Assembly: GCA_030295235.1 (NCBI GenBank)
Contig: AP026169.1
Coordinates: 62,001-126,000, forward strand
DNA: 64,000 nucleotides
From: Fistulifera solaris
Taxonomy: Eukaryota > Bacillariophyta > Bacillariophyceae > Naviculales > Stauroneidaceae
Direction: 5' to 3'
The translations under genes were made by a program, and so were the position numbers. Below are positions 1,913 through 20,667 of the stretch, piece by piece (the first letter of the stretch is position 1; each line of letters begins with the position of its first letter). The notes beneath the pieces are model-generated. The model saw nothing but the letters and a program-made list of their open reading frames with translations, had not been told where the DNA came from and did not search any database.

Positions 1913-3354
1913 ATGCGTGTCCTTCTTCGTTATCCAAGAAATAATAGTGACGAAGAAGTAAAAATCGATAGTGTTTTAGTCAGCGAAGCAGAGCAACCGC
2001 AGCAACAAGAAGAAGACAAAGTCAAGTCGACACGACCCGCCAGTCCTTTCTCAAAAGAGCCTTCTTCACCGAAAGACCTCCCCGTTGAATCCAAGAAACG
2101 CCCACGATCACCTTTTGACTCGAAACCCGCAGCTATCATGGTCGATGGTGGTCGTCGTCGACGATGGGACGACGAAGAACTCGTTGAAAATCAACCTCCT
2201 CCGCCTCTCTTTCCTCGCGTATGGGTGCTAGAAGAGGAAGAAGAAGAAGAACCCACCGGCAGTCCTACGAATCATCGTGCGACAACACCTTCCGAACGAG
2301 CCTTTCAGGAAAAACTCAAAAAGGAACGGGGCTTGGAAATTGTTGAACAAGCTGGAGACGGGAATTGTCTCTTTCGTGCCGTGAGTTTGCAAGTCTACGG
2401 GGATGCTTCTATGCACGCCGAAATTCGGGAACGTTGTATGGATTTCATGGCCCGGGATCCCGAACATTTTGCGCCGTTTGTCGACGGAGATTTTGCTGCA
2501 TACATCAAGCGTAAACGTCGTTTGGGGGTGCATGGTAACAATCCCGAAATACAAGCCATGAGTGAATTGTTCAATCGACCCTTTGAGGTTTTTACGCCCG
2601 ATCGCGGTACCGAGCCTCTCAATATCTTCCAATCCACCTACAAGACGAAGGATGTACCGATTCGTTTGTCGTATCATGATGGGAATCATTACAATGCGGT
2701 GATTGATCCGTTACTGCCGACGGCCGGTTTGGGATTGGGTTTGCCCGGTTTACAACCCGGTTTGGCGGATCAACTTCAGTTGGCCAAGGCCGTCGTCGAA
2801 TCGGATCAGTTGGCAGATGAAATTGAATTGCAAAAGGTGCTGGAAGTGTCTCGAGATGATGAGTTGCAACGTGCTCTCAAAGAAAGTAATGCATTGGTCG
2901 TAGAAAAGGTTCGTTACTATGCGATGTTTTTCTACAAGCTCATCATCAGGGAGTCCCTTACATACATACACTATTCCTCTTTTTTTCTTAGATGTACGAT
3001 CCAGCGGATTATGTAACAGAGGGAATGGGCGACGACGAATTTGATCTAGAGCAAAAAGTTTTACTGCAGTCTCTCGAAGAGTATCGTCGTCAAGAAGAAG
3101 GGCAAAAACAACGAGCGAAATCGTCGAGCCCCGTTGCCGCAGCGCGGTTGCCGGAAATCGCCACCACGGCTTCGTTTGCTGCCTCTGCCGCAGGAGTGGC
3201 ATCCCTTCCCACAACCCGGCCCATGGACGAATATCCTGCGACAGTACAAGAGCTCGTCATGAATGGATTTGAGTTACGGAAAGTGGTGCATGCCTACGAA
3301 CTGATTGGTGATGATTTTAATGACTTGTTGGCCTTCTTGATGTCCAATTGTTAG
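1913..3354 (+). CDS. OTU-family deubiquitinase (OTUD5-like) with C-terminal ubiquitin-binding region
   Basis: Two exons (1913-2908, 2992-3354) separated by an 83-bp GT-AG intron give 452 aa. Residues ~135-270 form an OTU cysteine protease domain. The motif DGNCLFRA supplies the catalytic Asp and Cys, and YHDGNHYNAV supplies the His, so the triad appears intact. The N-terminal ~130 residues are Ser/Pro/Glu-rich and probably disordered. After the OTU domain, two acidic helices (DDELQRALKES, then DLEQKVLLQSLEEY across the intron) resemble ubiquitin-interacting motifs. The C-terminus (YPATVQELVMNGFELRKVV...) resembles a UBA-type helix bundle. Known for the family: OTUD5 enzymes cleave ubiquitin chains and act in signalling or protein quality control. 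The substrate here is unknown. A later ATG at 2138 is a possible alternative start. Without splicing, the first exon reads into a short intron-coded tail. Confidence 0.87.
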
Positions 3355-3421: not shown

Positions 3422-4861
3422 CTATATTTTCTCTGTTTTCTTCTTTCGGGCACAATTGGAATGCGGTTCGGGCAAGCCTTCCACTTTTTCGATGTGATCT
3501 GTTTTGGTGTAACGATAGTTGTGATAGCCCTTGCCCATATAATGGCGTGATGTGAGGACATCGGTCGAATAGGAGCTACTCCGGACACCAATAAAGACAT
3601 CGGCATTCAAAGCTAGATCAAAATTGACCACGGAATGGAGCAACGATCCGTGATCGACTACTTCCGGATGAGATACGTAATGTTCTTGCACCAGACGCTC
3701 CCCGCATTCTAGGACCTGTACCTGCCGCGAACCGACACTCCATCCCTCACGAACAAGACGATTCAATGTTTCCAAATTGTGTTGCGAATGCGCTTGACGT
3801 TCGGCGGACTCGGTGGGTGCCATCATTCCTGCCCGCGAGACGGCAATAACCAAACCAGTCACATGCGGATAGTTTGTTTCAAACACCGTCGCGACTTGCT
3901 GTAAGATACGAGTCAGATTGCGTTCCATATCAATACCACAAACATGTGCCATCATATCCATTTCCAAACGGGCATGTAAGACGGCATAATGGGGTGTATG
4001 GGTTACAACACATTGCTGTGCAACCGCACGCCATTGCGGTGCCGGACGGAGGGCTCGATAAACCCATTCATCGACCTGCAATATTTCCTTCCTATGCGTG
4101 ATCTTCTTTTTTGTAAAATATTCTAAATAATCATTCCACAATCGTCCTGCTTGGGTGCCACCGCCGTACACAACAGGATGTTGACAATGCTGAACCAGTG
4201 GTAAGAAGTCTTGTTTGCGTGGATTGAATTCTTTGAGTTGAAGAGTGATATTTCTGAGGGGATGCAAATACCCCCGATCGAGTGTGGCTTGTTGCAACGG
4301 GTGCAAGGTTGTGTTGGCTGTCGTTCGAGGAAATTCCCAGCAATCGGAATTATGCAAAGGTTCCCATATCAAGAGAGGCAACTGCGGGTGAAACTGATTC
4401 CAGTATGGAACATCGAAGATCCATTCCATCGGTATCGGATACCATTTGGATTCATTTGTTAGAGTGACGATTTGCGTCGACCAGAGAATCGAAGGTAAAT
4501 AGATTTGTTCCAGATGATGCTGTTTTGCGTACAAAACAAAGGCTATCCATCGTAAAACTTGATTCCGATAGCCACCCAATAAGCCAGGTGGAGACAAGAG
4601 AGCTAATGTGGAATTGGGAGATTGCTGAATCGGGCGTTTCGCATCGCGAAGGAAATAAGAAAGCACGTGATTGCTGCTCGAAGATAATGTAACATTCAGA
4701 CGGTGCATCGCAAGAAGAAGGCAAAGTATATAACCCACAAAGAGGAGAAAAAAGACAACGTATCGTCTCCGAAAACGACAGCTAAAGAAGCGTCTCTGCT
4801 GCAACAAGCGATGGTGCGCATTTTGAAGGTGCTGCTCGCGTCGTTTCCGCACAGGACTCAT
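3422..4861 (-). CDS. Type II membrane glycosyltransferase, O-fucosyltransferase-like
   Basis: One intact 479-aa ORF. A basic N-terminus (RKRREQ, RRFRRRY region) precedes one hydrophobic segment at ~33-52, the usual Golgi type II anchor. The lumenal part starts with GGYRNQVLRWIAFVLYAK near residue 100, resembling the GG(x)NNQ donor-binding entry of GT-B O-fucosyltransferase-like enzymes. Later, HARLEMDMMAH resembles the conserved H-R-(F/L)-E-x-DM motif of that superfamily. Near the C-terminus, ALNADVFIGVRSSSYSTDV resembles the final nucleotide-sugar-binding segment. Several N-glycosylation sequons fit a secretory protein. Family assignment rests on these motifs only, and donor and acceptor are unknown. 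It faces away from a run of sulfotransferase-like genes and could build the glycan they modify. Palindromic elements lie ~150 and ~370 bp upstream of the start. Confidence 0.6.
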   Translation of the reverse strand: MSPVRKRREQHLQNAHHRLLQQRRFFSCRFRRRYVVFFLLFVGYILCLLLAMHRLNVTLSSSSNHVLSYFLRDAKRPIQQSPNSTLALLSPPGLLGGYRNQVLRWIAFVLYAKQHHLEQIYLPSILWSTQIVTLTNESKWYPIPMEWIFDVPYWNQFHPQLPLLIWEPLHNSDCWEFPRTTANTTLHPLQQATLDRGYLHPLRNITLQLKEFNPRKQDFLPLVQHCQHPVVYGGGTQAGRLWNDYLEYFTKKKITHRKEILQVDEWVYRALRPAPQWRAVAQQCVVTHTPHYAVLHARLEMDMMAHVCGIDMERNLTRILQQVATVFETNYPHVTGLVIAVSRAGMMAPTESAERQAHSQHNLETLNRLVREGWSVGSRQVQVLECGERLVQEHYVSHPEVVDHGSLLHSVVNFDLALNADVFIGVRSSSYSTDVLTSRHYMGKGYHNYRYTKTDHIEKVEGLPEPHSNCARKKKTEKI

Positions 4862-5011
4862 TCGTGCATTGCTTAGAGTATGAATACGAACGGATACGAG
4901 GGGAAAATTGCATTTGTTGATCGATTAGCAAGGCATCATCATTGTTATTTTTTGTGTCAAAGGATCAACGCTGCAGCGATACAAGTACATAGAAGTGTAG
5001 GATACCTTTTG

Positions 5012-5034
5012 TCGCGACTGACTTTCAGTCATGA
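5012..5034 (-). repeat. Dispersed palindromic element, copy 1
   Basis: Reads as half-sites CGCGACTG and CAGTCATGA around a 5-base spacer. Flanking sequence (GAAGTGTAGGATACC upstream) aligns with copy 2, so homology extends beyond the palindrome. About 150 bp upstream of the 4861 start codon. Confidence 0.55.
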
Positions 5035-5230
5035 GTCATGAAACATCAGTCGTCGTCAGGAAGGATGATGCTCTTACTCGTGCAACTTTCGCGTTTAGGT
5101 TCTCCCATTCTTTTCGTGAGTTGACGTTGCTAGTAACCGAAAACTAGTTTCGATTAGTATCTGCGTCGAGAATTCATCCTATCTTGAAAAGCTAAATTGT
5201 GCTATACTTCAAAGTGTAAGCGGCACTTCG

Positions 5231-5253
5231 TCACGACTGGATTTTTAGTCATG
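5231..5253 (-). repeat. Dispersed palindromic element, copy 2
   Basis: TCACGACTGG, then a T-rich spacer and TAGTCATGAG. Same orientation as copy 1, 219 bp away, with shared AAGTGTA and ACTTCGTC flanks. Confidence 0.55.
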
Positions 5254-5508
5254 AGGAATGGCGAATCTTGCTGTTATTATTCCGCTAACATTGTTTTCTT
5301 TGCTAGATCCTTGCGTTTGATTCAAAAGCAAGCAATCGTTTGTACAATAGATTTAGCGATTTATTTTATTACAAGTACATTAAGGAAACGTATGACTCGC
5401 GCGTCATCGATTCACAACAAAAGATAGATGATAGATGCGTGAGAAAATTTGATGAGAAAGTAGGAGAACAATCTCATGAACTTCCAGCCGCTCGTACGCA
5501 GCCACCCT

Positions 5509-8500
5509 TCACGCGAACACGTCCGGCCATTCCTCGGAGAATTCGCTGTAGCCCCAAGACTCGACATCGTCCCAATTGAGAATTTGCTTTGATAGCGGCA
5601 CGACAGCCTGCTTCGCCAGGCCTGGTGGATTCAAAACACTGCGAAGTAACTTCTTGTTGTACGGTTGTTGAAGAAGATTGGTCTGAATTTTCTGCACGAC
5701 GTCGAAATGATTCTTTTCATCGCTCAAATCACGGTCGTACTCGAACTCTTCGTACGGAATGGAGTTCAGGGCAAAATAGTTTCGAGCTTGTTTGTAGTAG
5801 CGGGTCGTCTTTTCAATGAACTCTTCTAGTTCCGACCGATCAATCTTGATGGCATCCTCTTCTGTGGTTCCTACGTTCGTCCACTTCTTCCTTGCCTTGG
5901 CAATCTGGAATGAGACAAAGATTTCTAGCATGTTCCGCCTCCAAAGAACCACATACTCTGTCTCCATATCGGAAAACAACGACATGAATCGCTGTAAACT
6001 GGTTTTCATCAAACGTGTAATCTGATCGGGGAATACTTTGAGGACAAAGAACGCTTGTGGAAGATGTGACGGAATGCGATGAATGAAATCAAGCACAGCC
6101 GCCGAATTTTCAAGTCGCTGTGATATCACGTTTTGAAGCTCTTCGATCACTTGGCGTTGCGAAGAGCTCTGGCCAAGCTTCGGAGAGAGCCGTCGCAAAG
6201 ACTTCATCAGGCGACGTGAATTTCCTTTCAGAGAGAGGGTGGCCCGCATCCCAACCACAGCCACGCTGGATCTGGTCGATAATGCGACCGAGGACACGTG
6301 CTATTAGCGACAAGTCGTCCCCGAAAAACTCGTACATGTTTAGCACATCGACCTTTGACTCTTGTCTTGTTGCAAGATTCTTGATGAAAGCAAAGAATAA
6401 GTTTGATCCTGTCCGGGCATTGGCGACAATCAGGATCGGTTGATGACGTCGTGCATTAGTGCTTGAAGCCTCGCAAATGAAGGTGGATCGGTCGTTTGTT
6501 TTGACGAAGGAACGTATCGCTTTTGAATTGTGTTCTCCAGCGTACTTCTTCAATACAAGTTCTTGCTGTGGCTGGCCTTTTGATGTATCACTGATAAGAA
6601 GCGACTCACCGCTTGTTGACGCCGCCAAAATATCTGGCCATTCCTCAGCAAGTTCGCTGTAGCCCCAGGATTCGACATCGTTCCAGTTAACAATCTGTTT
6701 TGAAAGTGGCACAGCAGCTTGCTTGACTAGACCGGGTGGATCCAGAACGCCGCGAAGTAGATCCTCGTTGTAAGGCTGATCCAGAAGGCTCGTTTGAATT
6801 CGCTGCACGACGTCAAAATGATGAGTACTATCACTCAAATCTCGGTCGTACTCAAACTCTTCGTAAACTATCGACTTCGACGCGAAATAGTTACGAGCTC
6901 GCACATAGAAAAGCGCGGTCTTTTGGATGAATCCTTCCAGCTCCGAGCGGTCCACTTCAATGGCATCATCTTCTGTTGTTCCTACGTTGGTCCACTTTTT
7001 CATTTGTTTGGCGATCTGGAACGACACGAAAACCTCCAACATGTTGCGACGCCACAGGATGACGTATTTGGTCTTCATCTCGGAGAACAAAGCAATGAAT
7101 TGTTCTATGGTAGTGTTCATGAGCCGGTTGACTTGATCGGGGAATACCTTCAACACAAAATACGCTTGTGAAAGATGTGACGGAATGCGATGAATGAACT
7201 CGAGTACAGCCTCCGGATTTTCAAGTCGCTGCGATATCACTTCTTGAAGCTCCTTAATCACTTGAAGATGCGAAGGGATACTGCCAAAGTCCGAAAGTGC
7301 AGTGGCAAAGACTTCGTCGGGCGAAGAGAATTTGCGGTCTGCATAGAGTTCATGTTTATTCCAACCGCAGCCACGTTGTATCTGGTCGATGATGCGACAT
7401 AAAACGCGCGATACCAGAGCCAAGTCGTCGCCAAAGAACTCATAAAGGTTGAGGACGTTGACCGAGTCTTCCTGTTTGGATGATAGATTCTTGATGAAAG
7501 CAAAGAAAAGGTTCGATCCTGTGCGAGCGTTCGCGACGATCAAAATGGGCTGATGAACCTTTGCGCCTTCGAGAGAGGTCTCACAAATGAAATCAAAACT
7601 GCTGTCTTGGAAGTTTGCCTTGCCGATGGGGCGAATTTCGTTCATAGCAGCAGCATTTGTCTCGCTCGTTGCTCCGGCAGACACCATCGTCGCACTGATC
7701 TCTGCTTCTGGAAGTTCCTTGTGAGCAGGGAGTGCTAGAATGTCTGGCCAGTCATCTGAAACGTCACTGTAGCCCCAGGATTGAACATCCTCCCAATTGA
7801 CGATCTGTCGTGCTAGTGGTACAACAGCCTGCTTGGCAAGTCCGGGTGCGTCTAGAACGCTTCGTAACAGTTGTTCTTCGTACGGCTGGTGGAGTAGTTC
7901 TGTTTGGATCCGCTGCACGACATCGGGATGACGGGAGCTGTCGCTCAAGTCGCGATCATATTCGAATTCTTCATATGTAATCGAGTTACAATCAAAAAAG
8001 TCTCGCGCTTCAACGTAGAACTGGGTGGTCCTTTGAATGAACTCTTCGAGCGTCGAGCGATCAACTTCAATGGCATCGTTTTCTGTTGTTCCGACATGAG
8101 TCCACTTATTCATTTGCTTGGCTATCTGGAACGACACAAAAATCTCCAGCATGTTGCGGCGCCACAGGATGACGTATTGGGTCTTCATGTTTGAAAATAG
8201 AGCGGCGAATTTTTGAATAGTAGTGTTCATGAGCCGGTTCACTTGATCGGGGAATACTTTCAAAACAAAGTACGCTTGCGACAGATGGGAAGGAATACGA
8301 TGAATGAAATCGAGAACGGCTGCTGGATTTTCCAGTCGCTGTGAGATTGCACGCTGCAACTCGTCGATCACTTGTCGTCGGGAAGGATTGGCACCAAACT
8401 CCGAGAGAGCGGCTCTGAACACTTCATCGGGTGATGAAAACTTTCGATCATAGTAAGCATTTTGCATCTCCCAACCGCATCCTTTTTGAATCTGGTCGAT

Positions 8501-11103
8501 GATGCGAGAGAGAACACGTGCAATGAGACTCTTATCATCCCCGAAAAATTCGTACAGCTCGAGGATGTCCACTGCGGAATCTTGTTTGGAAGCGAGACCT
8601 TTGATAAAGCCAAAAAATAAATTGGATCCTGTTCTAGCGTTGGCAACGATCAGGATCGGTTGATGTGGAGCCAGGTCGTTGCGAGTTGCTTGGCAGATAA
8701 AGTTCACGCCGTCGTTGTTGTGGACGTCCCCCATACGGACGGGAAGAAGCTGGTCCAAAGTACCTTGCGAAGCTTTCTTCGCCACAACGAGATCGGTCAT
8801 TATCTCTGTCGTTTCAAAAGATTCTTGGGAAGGAAGCGCCAAAACATCGGGCCATTCTTCAGCGAACTCACTATAGCCCCAGGATTCCACATCGTACCAA
8901 TTCATGACTTGCATCGAGAGGGGGCACCAGCGCTTGTTTGGTCGTTCGGGGACCATCCAGTACGGCGCGAAGCAGCTGTTCATTATAGGGTTGTTGCAGA
9001 AGGTTATTCTGTATCCGCCGCACGACATCCAAGTGCTGCTGTTCTTCACTCAAATCTCGATTGTATTCGAACTCTTCGAACGGAATGGAGTTGGACACCA
9101 GGTAGTCTCGCGCTTGCCAATAATAGCGCGTCGTCTTTCGGATAAACTGCTCGAGCTCCGGACGTTGGACTTGGATGGCATCTTCTTGCGTTGTACCGAT
9201 ATTCGTCCACTTCTTCATTTGCTTGGCTATTTGGAAGGAAACAAAAGATTCCAGCATGTTACGGCGCCAGAGAATGACGTACTGGGTCTCCATGTGGGCG
9301 AACAGTGATACGAACTCGTCTATGGTCGTTTTCATGAGGCGGTCGACTTGATCGGGGAAAACCTTCAACACAAAGTACGCTTGTGGTAGATGAGACGGAA
9401 TGCGATGTACGAAATCGAGCACACCCGCTGGATGTTCCAGACGATTGACGATCACTCGTTGCAGTTCCTCAATCACGTGTCGTCGGGACGACAGTGTGCC
9501 GAGTTCCGCAAGTGCGGTTTCCAGAACGGTGGCCGGCGAAGAGAATTTACGAGTGGCATACCGCTTGTGTGTCCCATCCACAACCAAGCTGGATGCGGTC
9601 CAAGATTTGACAAAGGACTCGTGCCAATAGCGCCGTATCATCGCCAAAGAATTCGTAAAGGTTGAGGACATCGACTTGCGATTCTTGTTGAAATGCCAAG
9701 TTCTTGAAGAACGCAAAGAGCAGATTCGATCCAGTTCGCGTGTTGGCGACAATCAATATAGGTTGATGAGGCTTGGCTCCCATTCGCGTCGTTGGGCAGA
9801 TGGAATCGAAAGCACCGTCTTGGAACTCCTCCACGGGCGGAATATCTTGTATCATCGGTTCCTTCTTGGTAGTCATTACTGTTGCAACATAGGACGGAGC
9901 GAATAGATCCGGCCATTCCTCGGTCGATTCCTTGTATCCCCACGACTCGACATCCGGCCAATTGATAATTTGTTTCGACAAGGGCACGAGTGCTTGCTTC
10001 GCCGTCCCTGGTTGCTCCAATACTTTCTTGACTAATACTTCATCGTGTGTTTGATTCAATATTTGCGTATGAATCCGTTCAATGACGGCTGCATGCCGTT
10101 CCGTATTCGACAAATCTCGATCGTATTCAAATTCCTGGTAAGGAATGGCGTGTTTCGTCAAATAGTTCCGCGCTTGTAAGTAAAAAGTCGGCCGTGTGTT
10201 GGACAAACCAGTCGAGTTCGGATTTCGTAATGTTTACGGCATCATCTTCTCGGGTACCGACATTGGTCCATTTCTTGCGTTGTTTCGCAATTTGAAAGAT
10301 ACAAAGGTTTCGAGCATGTTGCGTCTCCACAAAATGACATGTTGAGTCTTTAGATCAGCCAAGGAATCGATGAAATCCGCGACGGAAAGTTGCAGCTTGT
10401 CTGACAAGTGATAGGGAAAGACTTTGAGTACAAAAAATGGGTGCAAGGACCGTGAAGGTACACGATGTAAGAATTGTAGTAACGCGGCTGGATGCAGAAA
10501 GCGTTCCTGGAAAACGCTTTCAAGTTCACGCAAGACGTGTTGTTGCGACGGCGTCGCATTGAATTCGGCACGTGCCGTTTGAAAGACTTCATTTGGCGTC
10601 GCAAATTGCCGCAAGGTATATTTCTTGCGCGTATTCCATCCGCAACCGTTACGAATTTGATCGATAATGCGACAGAGAACTTGTACCAACAGCGCATCGT
10701 CTTCTCCAAAGACTTCGTACAATTGCAAGACATGCACTTGCGATGATGTTGATGATGATGACGACGAAGCTAAATTCTTGATGAAACTAAAAAACAAATT
10801 CGATCCCGTTCGTGCATTCGCGAGAATCAAAATAGGGCGATGGGGAAGGGTTCCCGCTGCCGCCGTGTGACACACAAATGTGTGTGGTTCGTCGGTCCCC
10901 ATAGAAAGCGTCAATGGCGCTTGTGCGAGCAGTGGATCGAATTGACTCGCGGGGAGAGGACTTTTTCGCCGCGTTATTTGCTGTTGAGCGAGCAAATGCT
11001 CCATGGCTTCTTGATAACTCCATTCGGTAGCAACCGAAATCAGCCACAAGACGATGACGAGAGAGACGAAACGACACGAGATGGATTTACGTCGGGGTGC
11101 CAT
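5509..11103 (-). CDS. Giant five-module Stf0-like sulfotransferase, membrane anchored
   Basis: Reconstructed as ~1863 aa in one locus. It starts with a single signal anchor (~12-28) and carries five tandem modules of ~365 aa. Each module has a 5' phosphosulfate loop, PILIVANARTGSNLFF or a close variant, at about 10840, 9765, 8665, 7550 and 6440 (spacing 1.08-1.11 kb). Each also has a second motif, VILWRRNMLEIFVSFQIAKQ...W, matching the 3'-phosphate-binding RR(N/D)..(Q/V)A.S...A...W pattern of Stf0-type sulfotransferases, then YEEFEYDRDLS and a closing NW.DVESWGYSE..EEWPD linker. Known: such enzymes move sulfate from PAPS to sugars. The acceptor here is unknown. Five frame breaks were found (10295-10297, 10182-10186, 9573-9575, 8920-8924, and one inserted base at 6178). 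Correcting each restores module sequence present in its siblings, and the summed length is divisible by three. Real decay remains possible. Confidence 0.72.
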
Positions 11104-12502
11104 TGTTGTTGTTTCGAGCGTCTATGTTTTCTTTTATCAAGCAAAACGAAGTCTGCTTTTCGAATCAAATAATTATAAATACGGGCTTGGAAATAGAAAT
11201 AATCAAAATCAAAATAAGAGTGTCAGAGAGAGTGTCAAGCCCCGGCAGGCCAACCAAGTGGGCGGTAATACAAATGCCGAGAATGCATCCTCACTCCTCA
11301 CGCTCGGTTTGCTGTGAGATTTTTCAAACCGTTTGGCACCATGCTTCTGATTTGGCTCACCCACTTCGTACTGACGGTTGTGGGGCTGTAAATCAGGGCA
11401 TAGTTGTAACGAATAATTTCCGTTACCTTCCGCAGTTCAAAATTCGAAACATTTACAAGGATAGGGACTGCCAGTACAATCCGCACAGTCGACAATGATT
11501 CAGTTCTCTATAAGGATACTGTACAAGAATGCCGATCATTTCCACAGTTAACGCTTTTGGGATTTTCAAAATTTGAATGGGTTTCCAGTTTCCATTCAAT
11601 CTTCTTAAGAGATATAAGTAGATCATTTCGTGAACGAAGTGGGCAAGCTCAAAACTGGAACATTCGACATTCACGCATTGTACTTTTATTTGGTATAGTA
11701 AAACAGGAGGGCATAGCTGCAAGTGAGCTGCCATCTGGCTGACACTTCGGAAACTGTGTAAGCTGCTACGGAAAATGGAAAATATACACACAAAACCGTG
11801 GCGCATTTCTCTTCAATGAGATCCTACGTACTACGTAGTAATAATATTTCTTCTAAATTTCCTAAACATGCGAGGGAACATGGAAAGGCACAATACTTAT
11901 CACTTATCAGGAGCAAGGGGAAAGCTTGTGACTTCCGCTTCCGCATCCCCGCATCCCTATTACTGGTACTGTAAACGCGAAAAGCGAAAAGCATAAACGC
12001 GCACCCGTCGAACTTCCGAAAAACGCTGCATGGGAAGAAAACGAATAATTCAAATTATTTTTTTAATGGATACCTGGTACCCTGGTTCGGAACACGGAAC
12101 AAGTAACCTTAATAACGAAGATCGACTATATAAAAGTTGTTGGGAATTATGAATTATTGACTTGAAATGTTATCGTCTACTGGTACCGCTACCGGATCCA
12201 GATCAGACTTCGAAAATTGGATTCCGAAACAACAAACAGACTGTCCTGTGCCGGCTCTGATCTCGCTCCAAAACTAAAAGAGATCATAACCGTCGCGTCC
12301 CAAACTGCCCAAAAGTGAATACTCCGTAATACTCTTGGTCTGGTCGACTGTTGCACCCGGTAGTCTCGAACCAGGGAGTCTCCAGTTACGAAAGCGGTAC
12401 AGAGTGCTTTGGTTGTCATTTAGCTAGGTATAGCTTGCTCGAACTTTTTCCTCTAGATCTAGTTCTATCGAGGTTAGTGTTTGATTGACTCCACAACTTT
12501 CA
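11104..12502. other. Intergenic, 1.4 kb
   Basis: Divides the five-module gene's promoter side from the 3' end of the acyltransferase. It includes a TACCTGGTACC-type patch at ~12070-12090. An antisense ORF near 11453-11806 shows no motif, so I do not call a gene here. Confidence 0.45.
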
Positions 12503-13709
12503 TCATTCCTGTTCAATGCGATGATATAGCATTTGACTCCACAATTGATGCGGTCCGGGCAAACAAAAGTGGGTCCCATCAAAACTCGCATCCGCCCGCG
12601 CCAACATGAGGGGCGCCGTATCCAAGATTTGGAAATTCCGTCGACGTTTTTCACTGGCAAGAATGCGCAACAACAATTTGTTTTGCATGGGTTGTTCGGG
12701 AGAATTGCCTCCGTACAAACTCCATTTGGCGTGCATGTTGGGTTGTGAACCGCCGGCTTGCGAGGAATTTGTATTCCAATCACCCGCGCCGCGGAGAAAA
12801 TGCCGCGGTTCGGTCGTTCGGACAAAGATGTGTGTGTCGGGTAAGAGACCGTAACTGATATCTTGCAAATGCGACATGAGTTTGGTGTAGTTGGTGCTCC
12901 ATTCCGGTCCTTTCACGCCTCTTCCACAATGATGTCCGTAATTGATGATGAGATAATCTTGCGGCTGCGCGTTTTGTAAAAAAGTCGTTGGCACTTCTCG
13001 CAATTCTTCACCACAAAAATCCGCCATGCGTTGAATGGTGCGTTCTGCTTGTTCCTGGGTAAAGTCCAAGATATGCAGTAGTTCACAGCGCAATACTTGC
13101 GCCCATTGTCGTGTGACACTATCACCGACCAAATAGATGGTCCGATTGTGCAGTAAACGTCGTACGCGCTGTTTGTATTCTTCGACGTGGTACGGCAAGA
13201 CTTGATACGGGAAAGAATCAGATTCCCATACCCACGGATCACTCGCATTCAAAATGCCCGGACTGTTTGCGACGGCCTGTTTCAAAATAGCGCGATGACG
13301 GGATTGCTTGGCTTTGTCGTTACTGTATTTCCACGCATCGGGATCGTGACAATTGCCTTGTCGTTCTAAATCGAGACATTGCAAATGTTCGGCCGAATAT
13401 TGTAACGCTTGATTCGGTCGATTCACCCACCGTCCGGCGACGGCTGCGGCTTCCGGCGTACTATGCACACGCCATAATAAATCGTATTCCGGGAGAGCTG
13501 TTGTTGTTGATGTTGCTAGATGATTCGTTTCCGTTGCTAGATCCGAGGAATCTTTTATTATTAGAGTAGTCGGAGATTGGGAAACGGGCACGATGATGGT
13601 TTGTAGAAAGGAAAAAAAGACACGAATAGTACATCGTCAACATTGTCAAGACGGCAAAGACGCGAACGATCCACGTCGTGGTGTTGTTGCGCAGTAAAAG
13701 AGACCGCAA
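12503..13709 (-). CDS. TBL/PC-esterase-type glycan O-acyltransferase, type II membrane
   Basis: About 401 aa after correcting one A7 run (13612-13618). Without correction the catalytic ORF would begin at a GTG, and the natural ATG with its membrane anchor (WIVRVFAVLTMLTMYYSCLFF) would sit in another frame. Catalytic features: GDSVTRQ at ~210, the GDS block I of SGNH/PC-esterases, and DGTHFCLPGP near the C-terminus, matching the DxxH(W/F)CLPG block of TBL (trichome birefringence-like) proteins. Both Ser and Asp-His are present. Known: plant TBL proteins transfer acetyl groups to cell-wall polysaccharides in the Golgi. Inferred: an acyl, probably acetyl, transferase on a secreted glycan. It sits between sulfotransferase-like genes on the same strand, which supports a shared glycan-decoration role. 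An esterase activity cannot be excluded. Confidence 0.75.
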
Positions 13710-14736
13710 GAAAAGAAAAAGATGTCATGGGCGATGAAGTATGGAAACGAGAAGAAAAAAGAGGTCTATTACAGTAGAGTAGAAGAAGCAAAGGAGTGAG
13801 GATGAAGGCTCGATCAAGGCAGTGCAGAGTGCAGAGTGCAGACTGAATAAGAATTTTGGGATGTAAAATTGTACAAGTATGAATTTTGTGGTCGTCTCCG
13901 TCTCCGTCTTTGTCTCCGTTTTCCCTCCAAGAGCATGCGGTTCTCGAAACGAGAGCAGACAGCACACTGGCTCCGGGTGTACCTGGTACTAAGTGTTTAA
14001 ATTCGCATTCACGAACGATAAGGTCACACTTTATCACTGGCACTTTTCTATAGTAAATGAGGCGTGGGGCTTATCGTTTCAACGAACGGTGAAGCATGCC
14101 TTTGTAAACCGTCCAGAAACGTCCAAGTCCCTGTCTCAGCAACTACTCTTTATCCCAGTGTACTAAAATTTCGTCAAGACTGGATATCATGAGTCATGAG
14201 AAAAAAACAGGATCTAAGCTTTAAAATTTGTTATTACATTGCGATTTTCACATTTGTGCGAGCACACGACATAACGAAAATGAGAAAATCGACGGCCGAC
14301 GAGCCGCTTTCTAAGCTAGAATAATGGCTAACGTTTGCTACCGTGAAGAACGCCATCCGAACTCTGAGTCGAAATAGTGATTCGAGAGTCGAGCTACAGT
14401 AGCAGAAGCTGATTGATAGCAGAGCTGTCCGTTTTTATGGGCTTTTTTCATGAAAGAAATAATGACAATCAACGTTTACAAATAATAGACAAGCCGCAAT
14501 CCGCAATCCATAGCGGCAGTCGTAATAGTGATAGGCTCAATGATCATTCCCGATATGGCTGACGCCCTTTCAGCATGGCCTTCTAAGCCGATACCTGGTA
14601 CAAGCACAATGGATAAATATTTTCGGGTTAACTTCTGTACAAGATTTAGCTGATTCTTGCAATTCGAATCAGAAAGACTTGTTGTTTCGCTGTTACCAGT
14701 AAATGTGCAATGGCGTCGTTGATATCAAACGAAGAT
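13710..14736. other. Intergenic, 1.0 kb, with one palindromic element
   Basis: Contains the acyltransferase promoter and one degenerate palindromic element at 14171-14200. I see no credible gene. Confidence 0.45.
14171..14200 (-). repeat. Dispersed palindromic element, copy 3 (degenerate)
   Basis: TCGTCAAGACTGGATATCAT followed by GAGTCATGAG. In reverse complement, the flank CAGTCTTGACGAA...TACACT matches the flanks of copies 1, 2 and 5. About 460 bp upstream of the acyltransferase start. Confidence 0.4.
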
Positions 14737-17426
14737 TCAATGACCCGGGAACAGATTCTCCCATTCTTCAATAGGACGATTATAACCCCATTCGACAATG
14801 TCATCCCAGTTCAAAACTTGTTCTTTCAGTGGCATAGTAGCTTGCTTTGTCGTCCATAATCCCTGCATGACATCGTTGGTGACCTTCGAATCAGGCCTAT
14901 GTTGCAAGAGGTGCTGCAAGTGACGCACTGTTTCTTCTTGACGCCACGCCTCGGACAAGTCTGTTTGATACTCAAACGCGCTATAGGTCACATTGTTTTT
15001 CACGAAAGCTGTCTTGATCTGGTGATAAAATTGTGTCGTCGACGCCACATAGTTTTCAAAGGCGGTCTTGTCGACCCGAATAGCGTCCTCAGCTGTAATT
15101 TCTACGTTCATCCAGTGATTTGTGGAAAGCGCAATTTGCAAAGATACATAAGCCTCCAACAAATTTCGTCGCCACAAGACGATCACCACCGCATCACGAG
15201 GAATTTGCGCGATGAATGGCTCTATCGAATCTTCCACATGCTCTGGAAATACTTTGAGCGCAAAGTACGACTGCTTGGGCGATGGGATCCCTTGCAAGAA
15301 TCGTATGAACGCCATGGGATCGTCATGCCTTTTTGAAATTGGTCCTGGAGTTTATGAAATAATTCCGTTCCACTGTGTTCGGTCATTAACGATACAAACA
15401 TATCATCCGGCGCTAGGAACTCTTGATACTTTGGAAAATATTTCATGGCGCGGTCACCCATCTGGCATTTGTCCTTTATATGATCGATAATCTGGGACAA
15501 AGCAAACAGCTTCAAAGAATCACTGGCTTGCGGACTGAGTAATTCCACTAGGTTCAGCATATCGGCATCTGGCCAAACTATACCGAGCATTGCCAAAAAG
15601 TTAAATAGCAAGTTCGACCCCGTCCGTGGAGTCCCAAAAACAAAGATAGGGCGATGAGAATGTTCTTCCGCAGTAGGGCAGATGAACCTTTGACTCTCCA
15701 TCTCGTTTGCCACTGGACTTTCAATTATTATGGTTGTATCGTTTACTGGTATATCGACAGGAACGTCCGGATTGGATTCAATGCCAAACAAATCTTCCGA
15801 CCACGTTTCTTTGTATCCCCAATCGTCTCGTAACTGATTCCAGTTCAATATTTGCTCCGGCAATGGAGAGTCCTTCGAAAAGTCGGGCAATTGTAAATGC
15901 TGTTGTGTCGCTGGCAGTTGCAACAACGATTGTAGCTTACTCCACGTCGATAATAGCTCACTGGCACTCGCAAGATCGCGATGGTATTCCAGTACCAAGG
16001 ATTGTTGTGGTGCCTTGGTTTGCAAAAAGAATCGAATTTTTCCAAAATATTCCTTGGTTTGTCCCACATACCGCTGCAGTGGTTCTTGTTCCACCACCAG
16101 TTTGCTTGCGATGGACCCAGAAGAATCACTGGAATAATAATGCTCTTCCAACATGACACGCTGATGTGCCGCGTACGATTGCAGCAAATTCTGTCGATAA
16201 ATGACCACAAAGACACTGTCGTGTTGTTGCAATTCGAGTAAGAATGCCTCCAGCGGCATATGAAAATGTTGCCATTCTTCTCGTTGCAACAAAAAGACAA
16301 AATGCGTATGAACCGACGGAATCCGACGTAGGAACGATAGCCATTGCCACGGTCGCAAAAAGCGATTTTGGAATTTTCGCATCAATTCCAAATACAAGTC
16401 GCGGCCATGATGATGATTATTATTATTAGTACTGTTTTCGGTCTCGTTCATGAGTTGAGCAAAGAGGGCGTGAATGTCTTGACCAAAGGTTTCTTGTTGT
16501 GGTGTGTACCATATGTTTGGATCACCAATTTGACAATTTTGTTTCAATTGATCAATGAGACGTACCAACATGGGTACTTGTTGTCGATCGTCGGCAAACA
16601 AATCCGATAATACCCAAAGATGAGGATCTTGGGCCATGATATGCAACAACGTCTCGGCACCGGAATGGGCTTGTGTGAATAGGACAATCGGTTGATGTAA
16701 ATGAAATTCTGCCAACGACGACGACGACGACGACGACGACTCGGGCACTGGACAAAGAAAGGGAGTTTGATATTTCTGGTTGTGCGTCTCGTCAGAATGG
16801 TTGCGTTGTTGTAGAATGGACTTCTTTGGTGGTTGCGTATGTATTTTTCTTTTTCTTGGGCAGGTTCCGTTGGTGGAACCTTGGGCTTGGGCTTGGGCTT
16901 ATCCTTATCTTGACCAAGCCGTTTTACTCGTTGGTCTTCTTTTTTCTTTTTCTTTTTCTTGTTCTTGAATATTATTCTGTCGTTTTTTGACACGTTGTTC
17001 ACGATACACAACTTGTGGTTGATGATGATGATTGAGTTCAGGAGAAGGCACGTACGGATGTCGTAACAGCGTCGTAATACTCCAAAAACTAAAGAGTAAA
17101 CTGGCGACACCCAACCAAACAAAGGCTGGATTTTTGACCATTTTGCTATCTTCGTGCGGTGGTGATTTTCGTCGTCGATACGGAGTATTATTAATACTAC
17201 TACTATTGCTGTGATTCGAATTGCTGTTAAGAGAAAGCTTTTGACGTGAGGAATTGGAACGAAATAATAAGAGATTTTTACTGCGATCATTGATGTTGGA
17301 AGGAGGCGGTCGTTGTGAAGTGGAAGAGATGGAGGACGACGACTCCGTGACATCTTGTTGTTGCAACGGCAGCATAAAGTAATCCGCCGATTTGCTGCGT
17401 CCGACCGTTCGTTTCCGTGTACTCAT
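14737..17426 (-). CDS. Two-module Stf0-like sulfotransferase, type II membrane, first module degenerate
   Basis: Reconstructed as ~896 aa. A Ser/Asn-rich cytosolic tail of ~95 residues precedes a membrane segment (NPAFVWLGVASLLFSFW, ~100-120). A Lys/Glu/Pro-rich stalk, a poly-Ser tract and two modules follow. Module 2 keeps the phosphosulfate loop (FVFGTPRTGSNLLFNFL), VIVLWRRNLLEAYVSLQIA and the NWDDIVEWGY end. In module 1 the loop reads LFTQAHSGAETLLH and the second motif VIYRQNLLQSYAAH, so PAPS binding is doubtful. Three one-base breaks are needed: T4 at 16922-16925, T5 near 16844-16848 (between them two in-frame stops would otherwise interrupt the stalk) and T5 at 15330-15334. The last restores QDQFQKRHDDPMAFIRFLQG, matching sibling modules. 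An intron in the stalk is an alternative for the first two, but I see no good acceptor site. Likely Golgi; acceptor unknown. Confidence 0.68.
16715..16740. repeat. GAC/GTC trinucleotide repeat (poly-Ser codons)
   Basis: Nine or so CGA/GAC units coding poly-Ser on the minus strand, between the stalk and module 1 of the two-module sulfotransferase. Probably length-variable. Confidence 0.7.
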
Positions 17427-17991
17427 ACTGTTTTGTTTATGCCTTAAGGTAAAAATAAATGAAGAAACGATGTTGTATGATGAAAGGAGACCTTATTATT
17501 ATTATTCTTTGGGTCGCAATTTTTCTCAATCAGAGAAGCGGAATGAAGAATCATACTCCGCCGCATCGATCCATGAGAAACGAAAAAAAAAATAGGTTGA
17601 ACACAGCGCGCGCCATACAAAGTAAGAAATCAACGTTGCCCCCTACACCAAAATGTAGAGAAACCGGGACTCAGGTTCTGCAGGGCTATCCAGAAAGCAG
17701 TAGGAACGTCTCCATACTTTCTGGCTGTCTTCGATGACTGCATACTGCATGTGCTGTGGGTTGTGACCGAACCAAGATCGAATGCAGTCCGGGACTTGAC
17801 TGACGGAGTCACCTCGGCAGCGGATGATGACGAATGACAAAACAACGCCAACACAAGATCTTCTGTTTTTCGTCTCTCGCTCGCCCTACCAGAGTCTATA
17901 TATATATTATATAAATATATATCTATTATTATTCATTATCCTTGCTATTTTTTTATCGTTTATATTTCACACACACACAATCAATCAAATA
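17427..17991. other. Divergent promoter region, 565 bp
   Basis: Lies between two head-to-head sulfotransferase genes. An AT-rich stretch (TATATATATATTATATAAAT-like, 17898-17930) sits 60-95 bp before the 17992 start and could hold core promoter elements. Confidence 0.4.
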
Positions 17992-19539
17992 ATGACTCCT
18001 CCTCGACACCAAGCGCTGACCTGTGTATTAACTTCGTTGGTCGTGTCGGTCTTACTTGGTTTGCATTCGTTCCAAACACAACAATGGGTGATGGAAGAAG
18101 AAACACGACTGATTTCACCACCGACGGTTGAGCAACTCATGATACAGGACGACGCTACGGTACTTGGAACCAATAGTTTGACGGTATCTCCGGCGGTAAG
18201 ACCACAATCACAGCCAGAAGAACAACAGGAGAAAGAGGTTGAAGAAGAATACGAAAAAGAGGAAGAACAAGGAGAAGAACACGAACACGAACAGGATATA
18301 GCTATGGAGGAAGAGGAGGAGGAGGAAGACGAACACGATAATAATATAGAAGATGAGGAAGACAAGGAAGAGGAGACATCAATAATTCAAACAATTTCTG
18401 AACAAGAAGAAACAACAAGAGATGATTCCGGAAATTCAAATGTTGAAAGTTTTTCCCCGTCATCGGAGATGAAAACGAGTTCGGAATACGACGGAATGGA
18501 GGATAACGAAACTCCAGCTCTTGAAACGACTGTCGAAACGAATTTGTCACCACCCACGATCGTTCCTGCTTCCCCTTATACGTTCCTTTGTGACACGGCC
18601 CCGCCTCACGCACAACCCTTTGAGCCCATCATCATGATAGCCAATGCACGGACGGGTTCCAATCTGTTTTTCAGTTTTCTCGGACGTTTGGCCCTCTTTC
18701 ATATGGATTTACTGCCACTCTATGAAATCTTTGGGAATGATTCACGATTGTTGGCACAATTGTTGAATCATATTTTGCAACAAATCGCGACAGGTTGTCA
18801 ATGGGAACAGGACGTTTCCTACAATCAAACTTGGACGGAACCCGAACAAGTCTTTGCAGCAGTCACCACCAGTAGTAGTATTGATTCGTCGCAACAAAGG
18901 ATATTGGAAGAATTGCAACACGTATTTACACACCGTTTAGAAGATCCGGCTCCCTTTTTAGAATTCTTACATCGCATCCCATCGACCATGCCACGGGCCT
19001 ACTATGCCTTGAAAGTGTTTCCGTTTCATGTTTTGGATTTGATGAAGATGAGTGTCACAGATTTCTTGGCCTTGTTCGAGAGTATGCCCAAGACGCAATA
19101 CATACTCTTGTGGCGACGCAACATGCTGGAAATCTTTGTTTCCTTTCAGATTGCTCTCACACGCAAAGGATGGGTCAACGTCGCTTCGACACAAGACAAT
19201 GCCGTGCAAGTGGATCGTAACGAATTGGAATGGTTCGTGCAACGTCTGGCGGACTTTTATCACCAAGCGGGAAACTATTTGTCCACCAAGTCCTGTCATA
19301 TCTTTGAATACGATCAGGATTTGAGTAATACGACCCAACAACTCAATACTGTCCAACGCATCCAAACGGAAATCTTGCAATTGCCGTCCAACGAAGAACA
19401 AGTGCAAATGGTTGTTGAGAAAGCTGGAACCACCAAACAAGCGATTGTGCCATTGTCACAACAGATTGTGAATTGGGAAGAAGTGCAACAGTGGGGATAC
19501 AGTGAATCGTCCTTGGATTGGCCGAATCTGTTTCCGTGA
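17992..19539 (+). CDS. Single-module Stf0-like sulfotransferase with acidic stalk
   Basis: 515 aa, intact. I chose the ATG at 17992 over the longer frame because it directly precedes a clean anchor (ALTCVLTSLVVSVLLGLHSF). The upstream extension is AT-rich 5' sequence. Residues ~60-190 are a highly acidic Glu/Asp/Gln stalk. The catalytic module begins at ~200 with PIIMIANARTGSNLFFSFL (PAPS 5' loop). It continues with YILLWRRNMLEIFVSFQIAL, a Stf0-type 3'-phosphate motif with downstream Trp, then FEYDQDLSNTTQ and NWEEVQQWGYSESS at the end. It is the only one of the three sulfotransferase genes with no frame break, and it confirms the module boundaries in the larger two. It is transcribed away from the two-module gene. 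Expected location is the Golgi lumen, with sulfate transferred from PAPS to an unknown secreted glycan or protein. Confidence 0.82.
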   Translation: MTPPRHQALTCVLTSLVVSVLLGLHSFQTQQWVMEEETRLISPPTVEQLMIQDDATVLGTNSLTVSPAVRPQSQPEEQQEKEVEEEYEKEEEQGEEHEHEQDIAMEEEEEEEDEHDNNIEDEEDKEEETSIIQTISEQEETTRDDSGNSNVESFSPSSEMKTSSEYDGMEDNETPALETTVETNLSPPTIVPASPYTFLCDTAPPHAQPFEPIIMIANARTGSNLFFSFLGRLALFHMDLLPLYEIFGNDSRLLAQLLNHILQQIATGCQWEQDVSYNQTWTEPEQVFAAVTTSSSIDSSQQRILEELQHVFTHRLEDPAPFLEFLHRIPSTMPRAYYALKVFPFHVLDLMKMSVTDFLALFESMPKTQYILLWRRNMLEIFVSFQIALTRKGWVNVASTQDNAVQVDRNELEWFVQRLADFYHQAGNYLSTKSCHIFEYDQDLSNTTQQLNTVQRIQTEILQLPSNEEQVQMVVEKAGTTKQAIVPLSQQIVNWEEVQQWGYSESSLDWPNLFP

Positions 19540-19911: not shown

Positions 19912-20667
19912 ATGGCCAAAGTTTCTAAGGATTACGCGTCGATTCCATCCATTGCGGCCGATGTCGAACATCGTGCAGACCATCAACGCTCCGCAACGTC
20001 GATCTACCACAGTTCCTTGCGTACACTCATCTGGGCTACGGCAGCGGTGGTTGGACTCACACTTCTGATCTGTTCTATGGCTCATGATTGCGGTATTTGG
20101 CAGTCGAGTCAAACGAACATGCCCATGAATGAGACGCATTCGTACGTTATGGAAGGACGAGCCAAATACGATGATGATTCGGACATGATGTCGAACGATG
20201 AATCCAGCCCCGTTCCTGTTCCGGGTGGCCCTGGAGGACCTCCGCCGCCTCTCCCACCCAAACGATTTTCGGAAGCCAGACACGGTCACAAGAATCACAA
20301 TCATGTCAAATCACATCACCATGACAAGCCTCATCATCACCATCATCGTCCTCCTCCTCATCATCATCATCATTCCAAGCAAGCTCATAGTGAAGACGAA
20401 CATAGTGAAAGCGACGATGAGAAGGGATGGATGTCTTCACTTCATGCGTGGTGGAACAATATGGCGGATAAAGTCGATGAGGAGGTTCACGAGAAAGAAG
20501 ATGAGAGCAAGGATAAACAAGACGAACAAAACGAAAATAGTAGCGATGAAATGAAAATAGGAAACATGACGGAGGGAGAGGAATCCGTCGTTGTCGTAAA
20601 ACATGCAGCGAACGCGGATATGAATGGACCAAATAATATGACGACTGATGAAAATGACGACAATTGA
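19912..20667 (+). CDS. His-rich, Pro-rich single-pass membrane protein
   Basis: 251 aa. One membrane segment (~38-57, LIWATAAVVGLTLLICSM) follows a short N-terminal tail. After it come a Pro/Gly run (VPGGPGGPPPPLPP, ~105-120), a dense His region (~125-160, with HHHHH runs separated by Pro and Lys), a WMSSLHAWWNN patch and an acidic Asp/Glu/Lys tail. No domain is recognisable. His clusters can bind Zn, Ni or Cu, so metal binding is a reasonable guess. The PPPPLPP stretch could bind an SH3 or EVH1 domain. Topology is unclear: the short N-terminus favours an N-in type II arrangement, putting the His-rich part outside or in the lumen. It follows the sulfotransferase run but there is no evidence of a shared role. 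Confidence 0.65.
   Translation: MAKVSKDYASIPSIAADVEHRADHQRSATSIYHSSLRTLIWATAAVVGLTLLICSMAHDCGIWQSSQTNMPMNETHSYVMEGRAKYDDDSDMMSNDESSPVPVPGGPGGPPPPLPPKRFSEARHGHKNHNHVKSHHHDKPHHHHHRPPPHHHHHSKQAHSEDEHSESDDEKGWMSSLHAWWNNMADKVDEEVHEKEDESKDKQDEQNENSSDEMKIGNMTEGEESVVVVKHAANADMNGPNNMTTDENDDN

Follow-up and report, generated by a model that had tools for sequence, protein, structure and literature searches.

The model we favour for a five-gene cluster of Fistulifera solaris, which lies in the 64,000-nucleotide stretch of DNA analysed here (the window), is that its products are secretory-pathway enzymes decorating a secreted diatom polysaccharide with sulfate, acyl and perhaps fucosyl groups, a reading we hold with moderate confidence. 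Three type II membrane proteins with one, two and five PAPS-dependent modules would act in the Golgi lumen, where they would esterify the polymer's hydroxyls with sulfate. The PC-esterase protein would add (or trim) O-acyl groups, the O-FucT-like protein may add fucose, and the backbone would probably be supplied by GT2 synthases to which, elsewhere in the genome, modules of this family are apparently fused.

The open reading frames and their motifs confirm the five genes where the initial annotation had placed them (Table 1), as well as its count of eight sulfotransferase modules in three genes (5 + 2 + 1). That all eight would be active is doubtful: the RTGSN PAPS loop is present in seven of them, the RTGSN motifs of M3, M4 and M5 being 370 aa apart, and the exception, T1, reads HSGAET and is likely inactive from its sequence, though conserved (dN/dS 0.119 over 296 codons). 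N-terminal anchors had been claimed throughout and are found in the O-FucT-like, five-module, S and T genes; the N-terminus of the window PC-esterase is frame-broken, and its hydrophobic segment is clear only in the homeologous copy. For gene S we take the ATG at 17992 as the start rather than that at 17824, because the protein from 17992 resembles the homeologous copy.

Table 1. Features of the cluster, in window coordinates.
Feature	Position	Strand	Remarks
O-FucT-like gene	3422..4861	-	479 aa; hydrophobic N-terminal anchor, residues about 34-52
Five-module gene (M1 to M5)	5509..11103	-	N-terminal anchor ISCRFVSLVIVLWLISVAT; five ORFs, one-base frame shifts
Frame breaks of the five-module gene	near 10298, 10182-10186, 9569, 8920, 6185	-	
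Module M4	6644..7603	-	intact; 73% identity to M3
Module M3	7754..8713	-	intact; AlphaFold2 model, pLDDT 88.7, pTM 0.88; Foldseek, VIA-align
Module M1, first part to frame break	10288..10890	-	later part at 9898-10191
PC-esterase (TBL/NXPE-like) gene	12503..13730 (end about)	-	GDS and DGTHFCLPG motifs; breaks near 13612, 13716
Site of gene U in the homeologous contig	14357..14446		homeologous contig longer by about 4.2 kb
Two-module gene T	14737..17426	-	homeologous copy a single open frame, 833 aa
Module T2	14740..15704	-	RTGSN; one frame break near 15328
Module T1 (likely inactive)	15783..16769	-	PAPS loop lost; YRQN for WRRN, Asp for Glu
One-module gene S	17992..19539	+	anchor LTCVLTSLVVSVLLGLHSF, acidic low-complexity stem, module 18571-19536

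The genome contains silicon transporters and paired contigs, which together point to an allodiploid diatom genome. The contig homeologous to that of the window (C23 and C24, respectively) carries the same five-gene cluster and, within its additional ~4.2 kb, a further two-module gene, U, which is missing from C24 and of which a search of C24 found no remnant. The order of the cluster genes is the same on C23, but this adds little because the flanking genes are also collinear there. Seventeen pieces of the cluster, cut to end at frame breaks, contain no stop codons and give dN/dS values of 0.05-0.26 against C23, so that the cluster represents more than chance coding.

The proposal that this module family sulfates secreted polysaccharides draws support from two further locus pairs, the only places outside the cluster where two whole-genome searches located such modules. 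Indeed, every module found by these searches lies in the cluster, in its C23 copy or directly behind a polysaccharide synthase, and at both locus pairs the modules follow a processive GT2 enzyme. In our gene models of all four copies (C34, C35, C36 and C37), removal of a short phase-0 intron (62-72 bp) would bring the GT2 and sulfotransferase parts into one frame; splicing at these sites would yield GT2-sulfotransferase fusions with 1, 1, 2 and 4 modules. Sulfation of a polysaccharide is thereby supported independently of the cluster. The partner loci show the D, TED and QxxRW residues and the membrane spans of processive GT2 enzymes: the C35 protein contains DADH, TED and QKQRW, and six of its segments reach a hydrophobicity of at least 1.3; C36 and C37 show these motifs too, and PF13632 scores above its cut-off. 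The GT2 exons resemble BcsA-type cellulose synthases in motifs and in their several membrane spans, and cellulose synthases are the best solved relatives (E 1.1e-21). They differ from the NCBIfam CelA family, for which they score 121 bits against a cut-off of 699, and in the sulfotransferase modules that follow in frame.

The most serious competitor of our model, which we regard as unlikely, is that the sulfotransferases are real secretory enzymes acting on glycoproteins or glycolipids, that the three genes are tandem duplicates and that the PC-esterase and O-FucT genes are neighbours by chance. An unrooted tree separates M1-M5, U and S from the other modules with support 96/94, a pattern that local duplication produces, and the collinearity of the flanking genes on C23 is equally in keeping with this explanation. 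Non-homologous genes of glycan type do stand side by side, and they may belong to one shared pathway; by our own arithmetic, a subgenome of 26 Mb with 200 glycan genes, a number that we assume, would have two or more of them less than 20 kb from any one locus in about 4% of cases, so the adjacency could be fortuitous. No 6-8 base words are shared by the 300 bp upstream of the five genes, and no GT2 gene was found in the window cluster. Against chance neighbourhood, modules of this type are linked to a processive polysaccharide synthase at the two further locus pairs, and the PC-esterase gene sits within the run of sulfotransferase genes in a genome where few PC-esterases were found.

The two non-sulfotransferase genes fared differently. 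The PC-esterase assignment is upheld by Pfam (PF13839, E 7.3e-14, 52.8 bits against a cut-off of 27), and the translation contains, as the initial annotation had noted, the GDS and DGTHFCLPG motifs, in the form VGDSVTRQW and FDGTHFCLPG; we take the GDS and D..H motifs to be catalytic in PC-esterase/TBL proteins. NCBIfam and a PDB sequence search gave no match for this protein. It is like PC-esterase/TBL O-acetyltransferases in score, in motifs and in the N-terminal anchor of its C23 copy, and unlike them in lying inside a sulfotransferase cluster. The O-FucT assignment is weak: the Pfam O-FucT profile (PF10250) does match (E 3.4e-6), but with 27.3 bits, below the cut-off of 31.5, and neither profile-profile comparison nor a single-sequence fold adds to it. 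The hhalign comparison with unambiguous O-FucT genes from this genome, made with thin profiles, aligned 20 columns with a probability of 0.7%, and the single-sequence fold is a poor model (pLDDT 42); the PDB sequence search and NCBIfam returned no match for this protein either. The gene is conserved on C23 in two pieces (87% and 83% identity; dN/dS 0.14 and 0.26). O-FucT matches are numerous in this genome (22 pieces), which suits a chance neighbour.

The frame breaks of the five-module gene raise the question of its decay. That it would be a pseudogene, the shorter genes alone being at work, is suggested by five one-base breaks that the window copy carries; one of these, an extra T, is common to both homeologs. 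The C23 copy (C23:70026-75731) lacks the remaining four and has its own breaks elsewhere, and nine pieces of the gene are free of stops with dN/dS of 0.05-0.18. Furthermore, such indels also affect other window reading frames: 37 indels not divisible by three occur in 14,341 aligned bases of the 12 of 15 window ORFs that match C23, a count in which one indel belongs to two overlapping ORFs and part of the indels may be intronic or untranslated. We consider decay very improbable and reject it on the grounds of this selection and of the indels in other ORFs.

The family of the modules could be defined more closely. The initial annotation had called them Stf0-like and named a placement outside the sulfotransferase fold as what would speak against it; the comparison with the M3 model gave the P-loop sulfotransferase fold, and membership of Stf0 proper is not borne out by the curated cut-offs. 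Ranked by E-value, the Foldseek matches of M3 are headed by a GTPase, with P-loop kinases scoring close to Stf0, and the Foldseek alignment to Stf0 trehalose 2-sulfotransferase (PF09037, PDB 1tex; 17% identity) is loose (TM 0.37/0.48, rmsd 15 A). After realignment, all 50 matches listed are sulfotransferases. Of 26 modules, 24 retain the Arg loop (RTGS), the Glu and the RR...S motif, the exceptions being T1 and its homeolog, and the RTGS of the PAPS loop and the Ser of the 3'-phosphate helix are invariant in a six-row alignment. These results, including the modelled structure, support a PAPS-dependent sulfotransferase fold, with sulfate transfer from PAPS as a prediction.

Profile scores are in general weak. 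The curated Pfam sulfotransferase cut-offs are passed by none of the window ORFs: Stf0 gives E 0.013 and 15.4 bits (cut-off 22), Sulfotransfer_3 (PF13469) reaches E 0.0037 and 18 bits on T2 (cut-off 27), and S and several frame-broken pieces have no sulfotransferase match in the Pfam scan. Sulfotransfer_3 nevertheless matches four of six modules scanned singly (best E 1.1e-5), and its cut-off is passed by the multi-module proteins of C36 (53.3 bits) and C37 (29.3 bits). Among eight proteins scanned with NCBIfam, M3 scored 12 bits against the 400 of the trehalose 2-sulfotransferase equivalog NF047724, and S, T and the C35 module protein had no match; PDB sequence searches with the modules returned no sulfotransferase. 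In the F. solaris genome, PF09037 gave zero matches, an uninformative result as 14 controls were equally silent, and PF13469 gave 17, of which two are T2 of C24 and its C23 counterpart and the other 15 are more distant sulfotransferases with no GT2 tie in any test. Scans of prokaryote genomes, viral contigs and plasmids confirmed no relatives, each contig scan relying on two short peptide patterns that may miss distant ones. That the fold would serve another, nucleotide-binding or kinase-like reaction is the least probable explanation, the proximity of GTPase and kinases in Foldseek and the weak Pfam scores being countered by the realigned matches, the conserved motifs and the Sulfotransfer_3 scores.

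In conclusion, the initial reading is partly supported, and it can be extended tentatively, at rather less than even odds: the synthase would bear its own sulfotransferase modules (GT2 plus one, two or four) and sulfate the chain, a wall or exuded glycan, at its exit from the membrane, and the window cluster would add further sulfate through arrays of up to five modules, aided by a conserved dead module, together with acyl and perhaps fucosyl groups. Such modules, apparently joined to a GT2, hint at how F. solaris may make a sulfated glycan. Diatoms are reported to secrete sulfated polysaccharides, a fucose-containing one being proposed to aid ocean carbon sinking (PMC7896085); according to another report, such polymers are still questioned outside brown algae, and hence their diatom genes too (PMC11468063). 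The cluster and its partner loci name a small candidate set, so that genes for a sulfated diatom polymer become testable by knock-out in a species for which genome editing has been reported (PMC13276009) and an RNA-seq time course described (PMC5935921).

How does this locus compare with known systems? Our searches of the literature on diatom Stf0 proteins, GT2-sulfotransferase fusions, multi-domain sulfotransferases and F. solaris sulfotransferases, with subscription papers mostly outside their reach, returned nothing on this locus; judged by that literature, both the fusion of a synthase with sulfotransferase modules and the sulfotransferase of five modules would count as new enzyme architectures. 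With respect to Stf0, the modules differ in their membrane anchors, in their number of up to five per gene and in scores below the Pfam and NCBIfam cut-offs. A parallel in organization is the brown-algal cluster of FK-GFPP, sulfotransferase and hydrolase genes described for sulfated-fucan metabolism (PMC6418280, PMC11468063). There, a stramenopile sulfotransferase is accompanied by partners in sulfated-fucan metabolism, and gene fusions also occur; the brown-algal set comprises fucokinase, GDP-fucose pyrophosphorylase and a hydrolase, whereas that of the diatom comprises an O-FucT-like protein, a PC-esterase and, elsewhere in the genome, the putative GT2 fusions.

The stronger argument for a pathway of glycan sulfation comes from outside the window, from loci at which exons of GT2, a family of processive polysaccharide synthases, precede modules, each module being one PAPS-dependent sulfotransferase-fold unit. 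At all four places (the homeologous contig pairs C34/C35 and C36/C37), the module frame sits behind a GT2 glycosyltransferase on the same strand. The glycosyltransferase is recognized by Pfam PF13632 (E 6.5e-24 on C35, 1.6e-23 on C34), carries the motifs DADH, TED and QKQRW, and has a bacterial cellulose synthase as its closest solved structure (E 1.1e-21). The gap between GT2 and module (62, 62, 71 and 72 bp) begins with GTAAGT and ends with an AG picked by eye on the homeolog alignment; its removal joins the two frames in phase 0 with no stop over 600 aa in 4/4 copies, and its retention leads to a stop 4-28 codons from the donor. From these frames we infer synthase-sulfotransferase fusions through a phase-0 intron of 62-72 bp. 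For GT2 the dN/dS values are 0.11 and 0.03, and the modules give 0.31 and 0.07; the single stop counted in the C34 comparison is the natural gene end. The C35 protein has six hydrophobic segments, five of them placed after the GT domain and before the module, so that the module would face the far membrane side, where the polymer exits; counting one further weak hydrophobic segment would reverse this topology. The genome search with GT2 returned 11 pieces, which amount to a single gene on each of C34 and C35, a pair of genes on each of C36 and C37, and one weak match on C15 (E 2e-5). The second copies on C36 and C37 lie upstream of the GT2-sulfotransferase gene, and no module was found directly behind them in the searches with M4 (a module of the five-module gene) and with a C36 module.

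Within the window, the five neighbouring genes described by the initial annotation are confirmed, as are their eight modules; the O-FucT and Stf0 labels are softened, and the active form of the PAPS loop is present in 7/8 modules. The O-FucT-like protein scores 27.3 bits against a cut-off of 31.5, a weak family call to which hhalign and folding brought no support. Pfam at E 0.001 detected no glycan enzyme among 20 other window ORFs, a subset of the total, and the glycan genes thus form a compact group. In T1, one of the modules of gene T, HSGAET replaces RTGSN, YRQN replaces WRRN and Asp replaces Glu (HSGAET, YRQH and Asp in the copy on C23, the homeolog of C24), and T1 is probably inactive. 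Its dN/dS of 0.119 over 296 codons indicates that it is kept as a protein, and its role would be structural or regulatory.

Features of the cluster and of related loci (bare coordinates are window positions; L015-L018 are stretches of partner-locus contigs)
Feature	Location	Strand	Remark
OTU protease gene	1913-3016		adjoins the cluster on one side
O-FucT-like gene	3422-4861	-	
Five-module sulfotransferase gene	5509-11103	-	
PC-esterase gene	12503 to about 13730	-	
Two-module sulfotransferase gene T	14737-17426	-	
One-module sulfotransferase gene S	17992-19539	+	
Gene without family call	19912-20667		other side of the cluster; then DUF1118 and LUC7 genes
One-base shifts, five-module gene	near 10298, 10182-10186, 9569, 8920, 6185		
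Frame breaks, gene T	near 15328; within 16833-16975		second placed only to a range, omitted from block alignments
Frame breaks, PC-esterase gene	near 13612, 13716		
Frame breaks, C23 (examples)	68962, 70644, 72993, 77028, 87061		
Extra T, run in module M1	10182-10186; C23:74710-74715		common to both homeologs
Two-module gene U	about C23:79414-81932		between PC-esterase gene and gene T
Other PC-esterase matches	C34:359772-365004; C35:389912-395122		
Modules, C34/C35			one on each contig
Modules, C36/C37			four on C36, two on C37
Module array, C36	C36:653951-657862		period 1005 bp
Second GT2 copies	C36:648725-650358; C37:595100-596721		
Putative GT2-sulfotransferase fusions	L015 4674-7645; L016 4789-7667; L017 1977-7922; L018 1855-5915		
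Other Sulfotransfer_3 proteins	C23:453547-454005; C24:455603-456064		also C11, C12, C26, C32, C33

Could the grouping be fortuitous? The genome search gave 22 matched pieces for O-FucT and five matches for PC-esterase, a search that missed the C23 copy. Besides the cluster gene, the PC-esterase matches number two per subgenome and share their contigs with a GT2-sulfotransferase locus more than 160 kb away. An exact pairing of these families by chance is unlikely, but the families were picked after being seen; if each 26 Mb subgenome is assumed to hold 200 glycan genes, an arithmetic estimate puts at about 4% the chance that at least two of them fall within 20 kb of one given locus. Being independent of the window, the GT2 loci are better support than clustering.

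The genome searched comprises 51.7 Mb in 61 contigs, the window being bases 62001-126000 of C24; figures of 49.7 Mb (PMC8329260) and 42 chromosome pairs (PMC5935921) are given for Fistulifera solaris. The silicon transporter family gave 23 matched pieces (best E 3.5e-222), and a match, below the cut-off, in 1 of 14 control genomes; the genome is therefore very likely that of a diatom. Second gene copies are common on partner contigs (C23/C24, C15/C16, C34/C35, C36/C37), which fits an allopolyploid. The cluster blocks of C23 and C24 share 84-86% DNA identity in four cases out of five and 74% in the remaining one. C23 keeps the gene order of C24, which is weak functional evidence because the flanking genes are also collinear, and holds 10 modules, including those of gene U. 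No remnant of U was found in C24, where the flanking sequence closes up within 14357-14446; module content therefore differs between the subgenomes.

Whole-genome searches yielded 36 matched pieces with M4 and 33 with the C36 module, both lower bounds, and placed this family at three locus pairs only. The Sulfotransfer_3 search gave 17 matches at E 0.1, two being T2 modules; proteins outside the M4/C36-module family were also seen. In the four-module C36 array, identity is 100% between modules 2 and 3 (897 bases) and 94-99% for the remaining pairs, a pattern that points either to a recent expansion of the array or to an artefact of assembly.

We read the frame breaks as assembly errors, which are apparently numerous in this assembly. 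Of the five breaks in the five-module gene, C23 lacks four; it carries others of its own, and its copy of gene T is a single open frame of 833 aa. Between window and C23, 17 pieces, trimmed so that their ends coincide with frame breaks, contain no stops and give dN/dS of 0.05-0.26. The other window ORFs show 37 indels not divisible by three per 14,341 aligned bases against C23 (12 of 15 ORFs matched in the fetched stretch, two of them overlapping and sharing one indel), some of which may fall in introns or untranslated parts. Further genes appear split by one-base indels at 1-1363 and 46633-48452, as exemplified by an eIF2B-epsilon gene spread over two ORFs. In the case of the M1 run, which is T5 in the window and T6 in C23, the coding sequence past the shared extra T is still under selection (dN/dS 0.18 over 96 codons), and the extra T is either an assembly error common to both contigs or a genuine frameshift that is bypassed in some way.

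The initial annotation proposed a Golgi set decorating one secreted glycan, and this direction holds, with weaker O-FucT and Stf0 labels. In the model we consider most likely, the GT2 enzymes would build a backbone on which the fused modules would put sulfate. The window cluster would add more sulfate in the Golgi by means of anchored proteins with one, two and five modules, the PC-esterase protein would add or edit acyl esters, and the O-FucT-like protein, given its weak family call, might add fucose. Diatom glucuronomannan is sulfated. Its structure, as reported (PMC11468063), or the fucose-containing sulfated polysaccharide described in diatoms (PMC7896085) could fit as the polymer. Our literature search found no paper on diatom GT2-sulfotransferase fusions or on multi-module sulfotransferases like these. 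Diatom sulfotransferases are mentioned as enzymes that may produce sulfated exudates (PMC8329260), and a conserved small cluster is reported in brown algae, where a fused fucokinase/GDP-fucose pyrophosphorylase lies with a sulfotransferase and a hydrolase (PMC6418280, PMC11468063).
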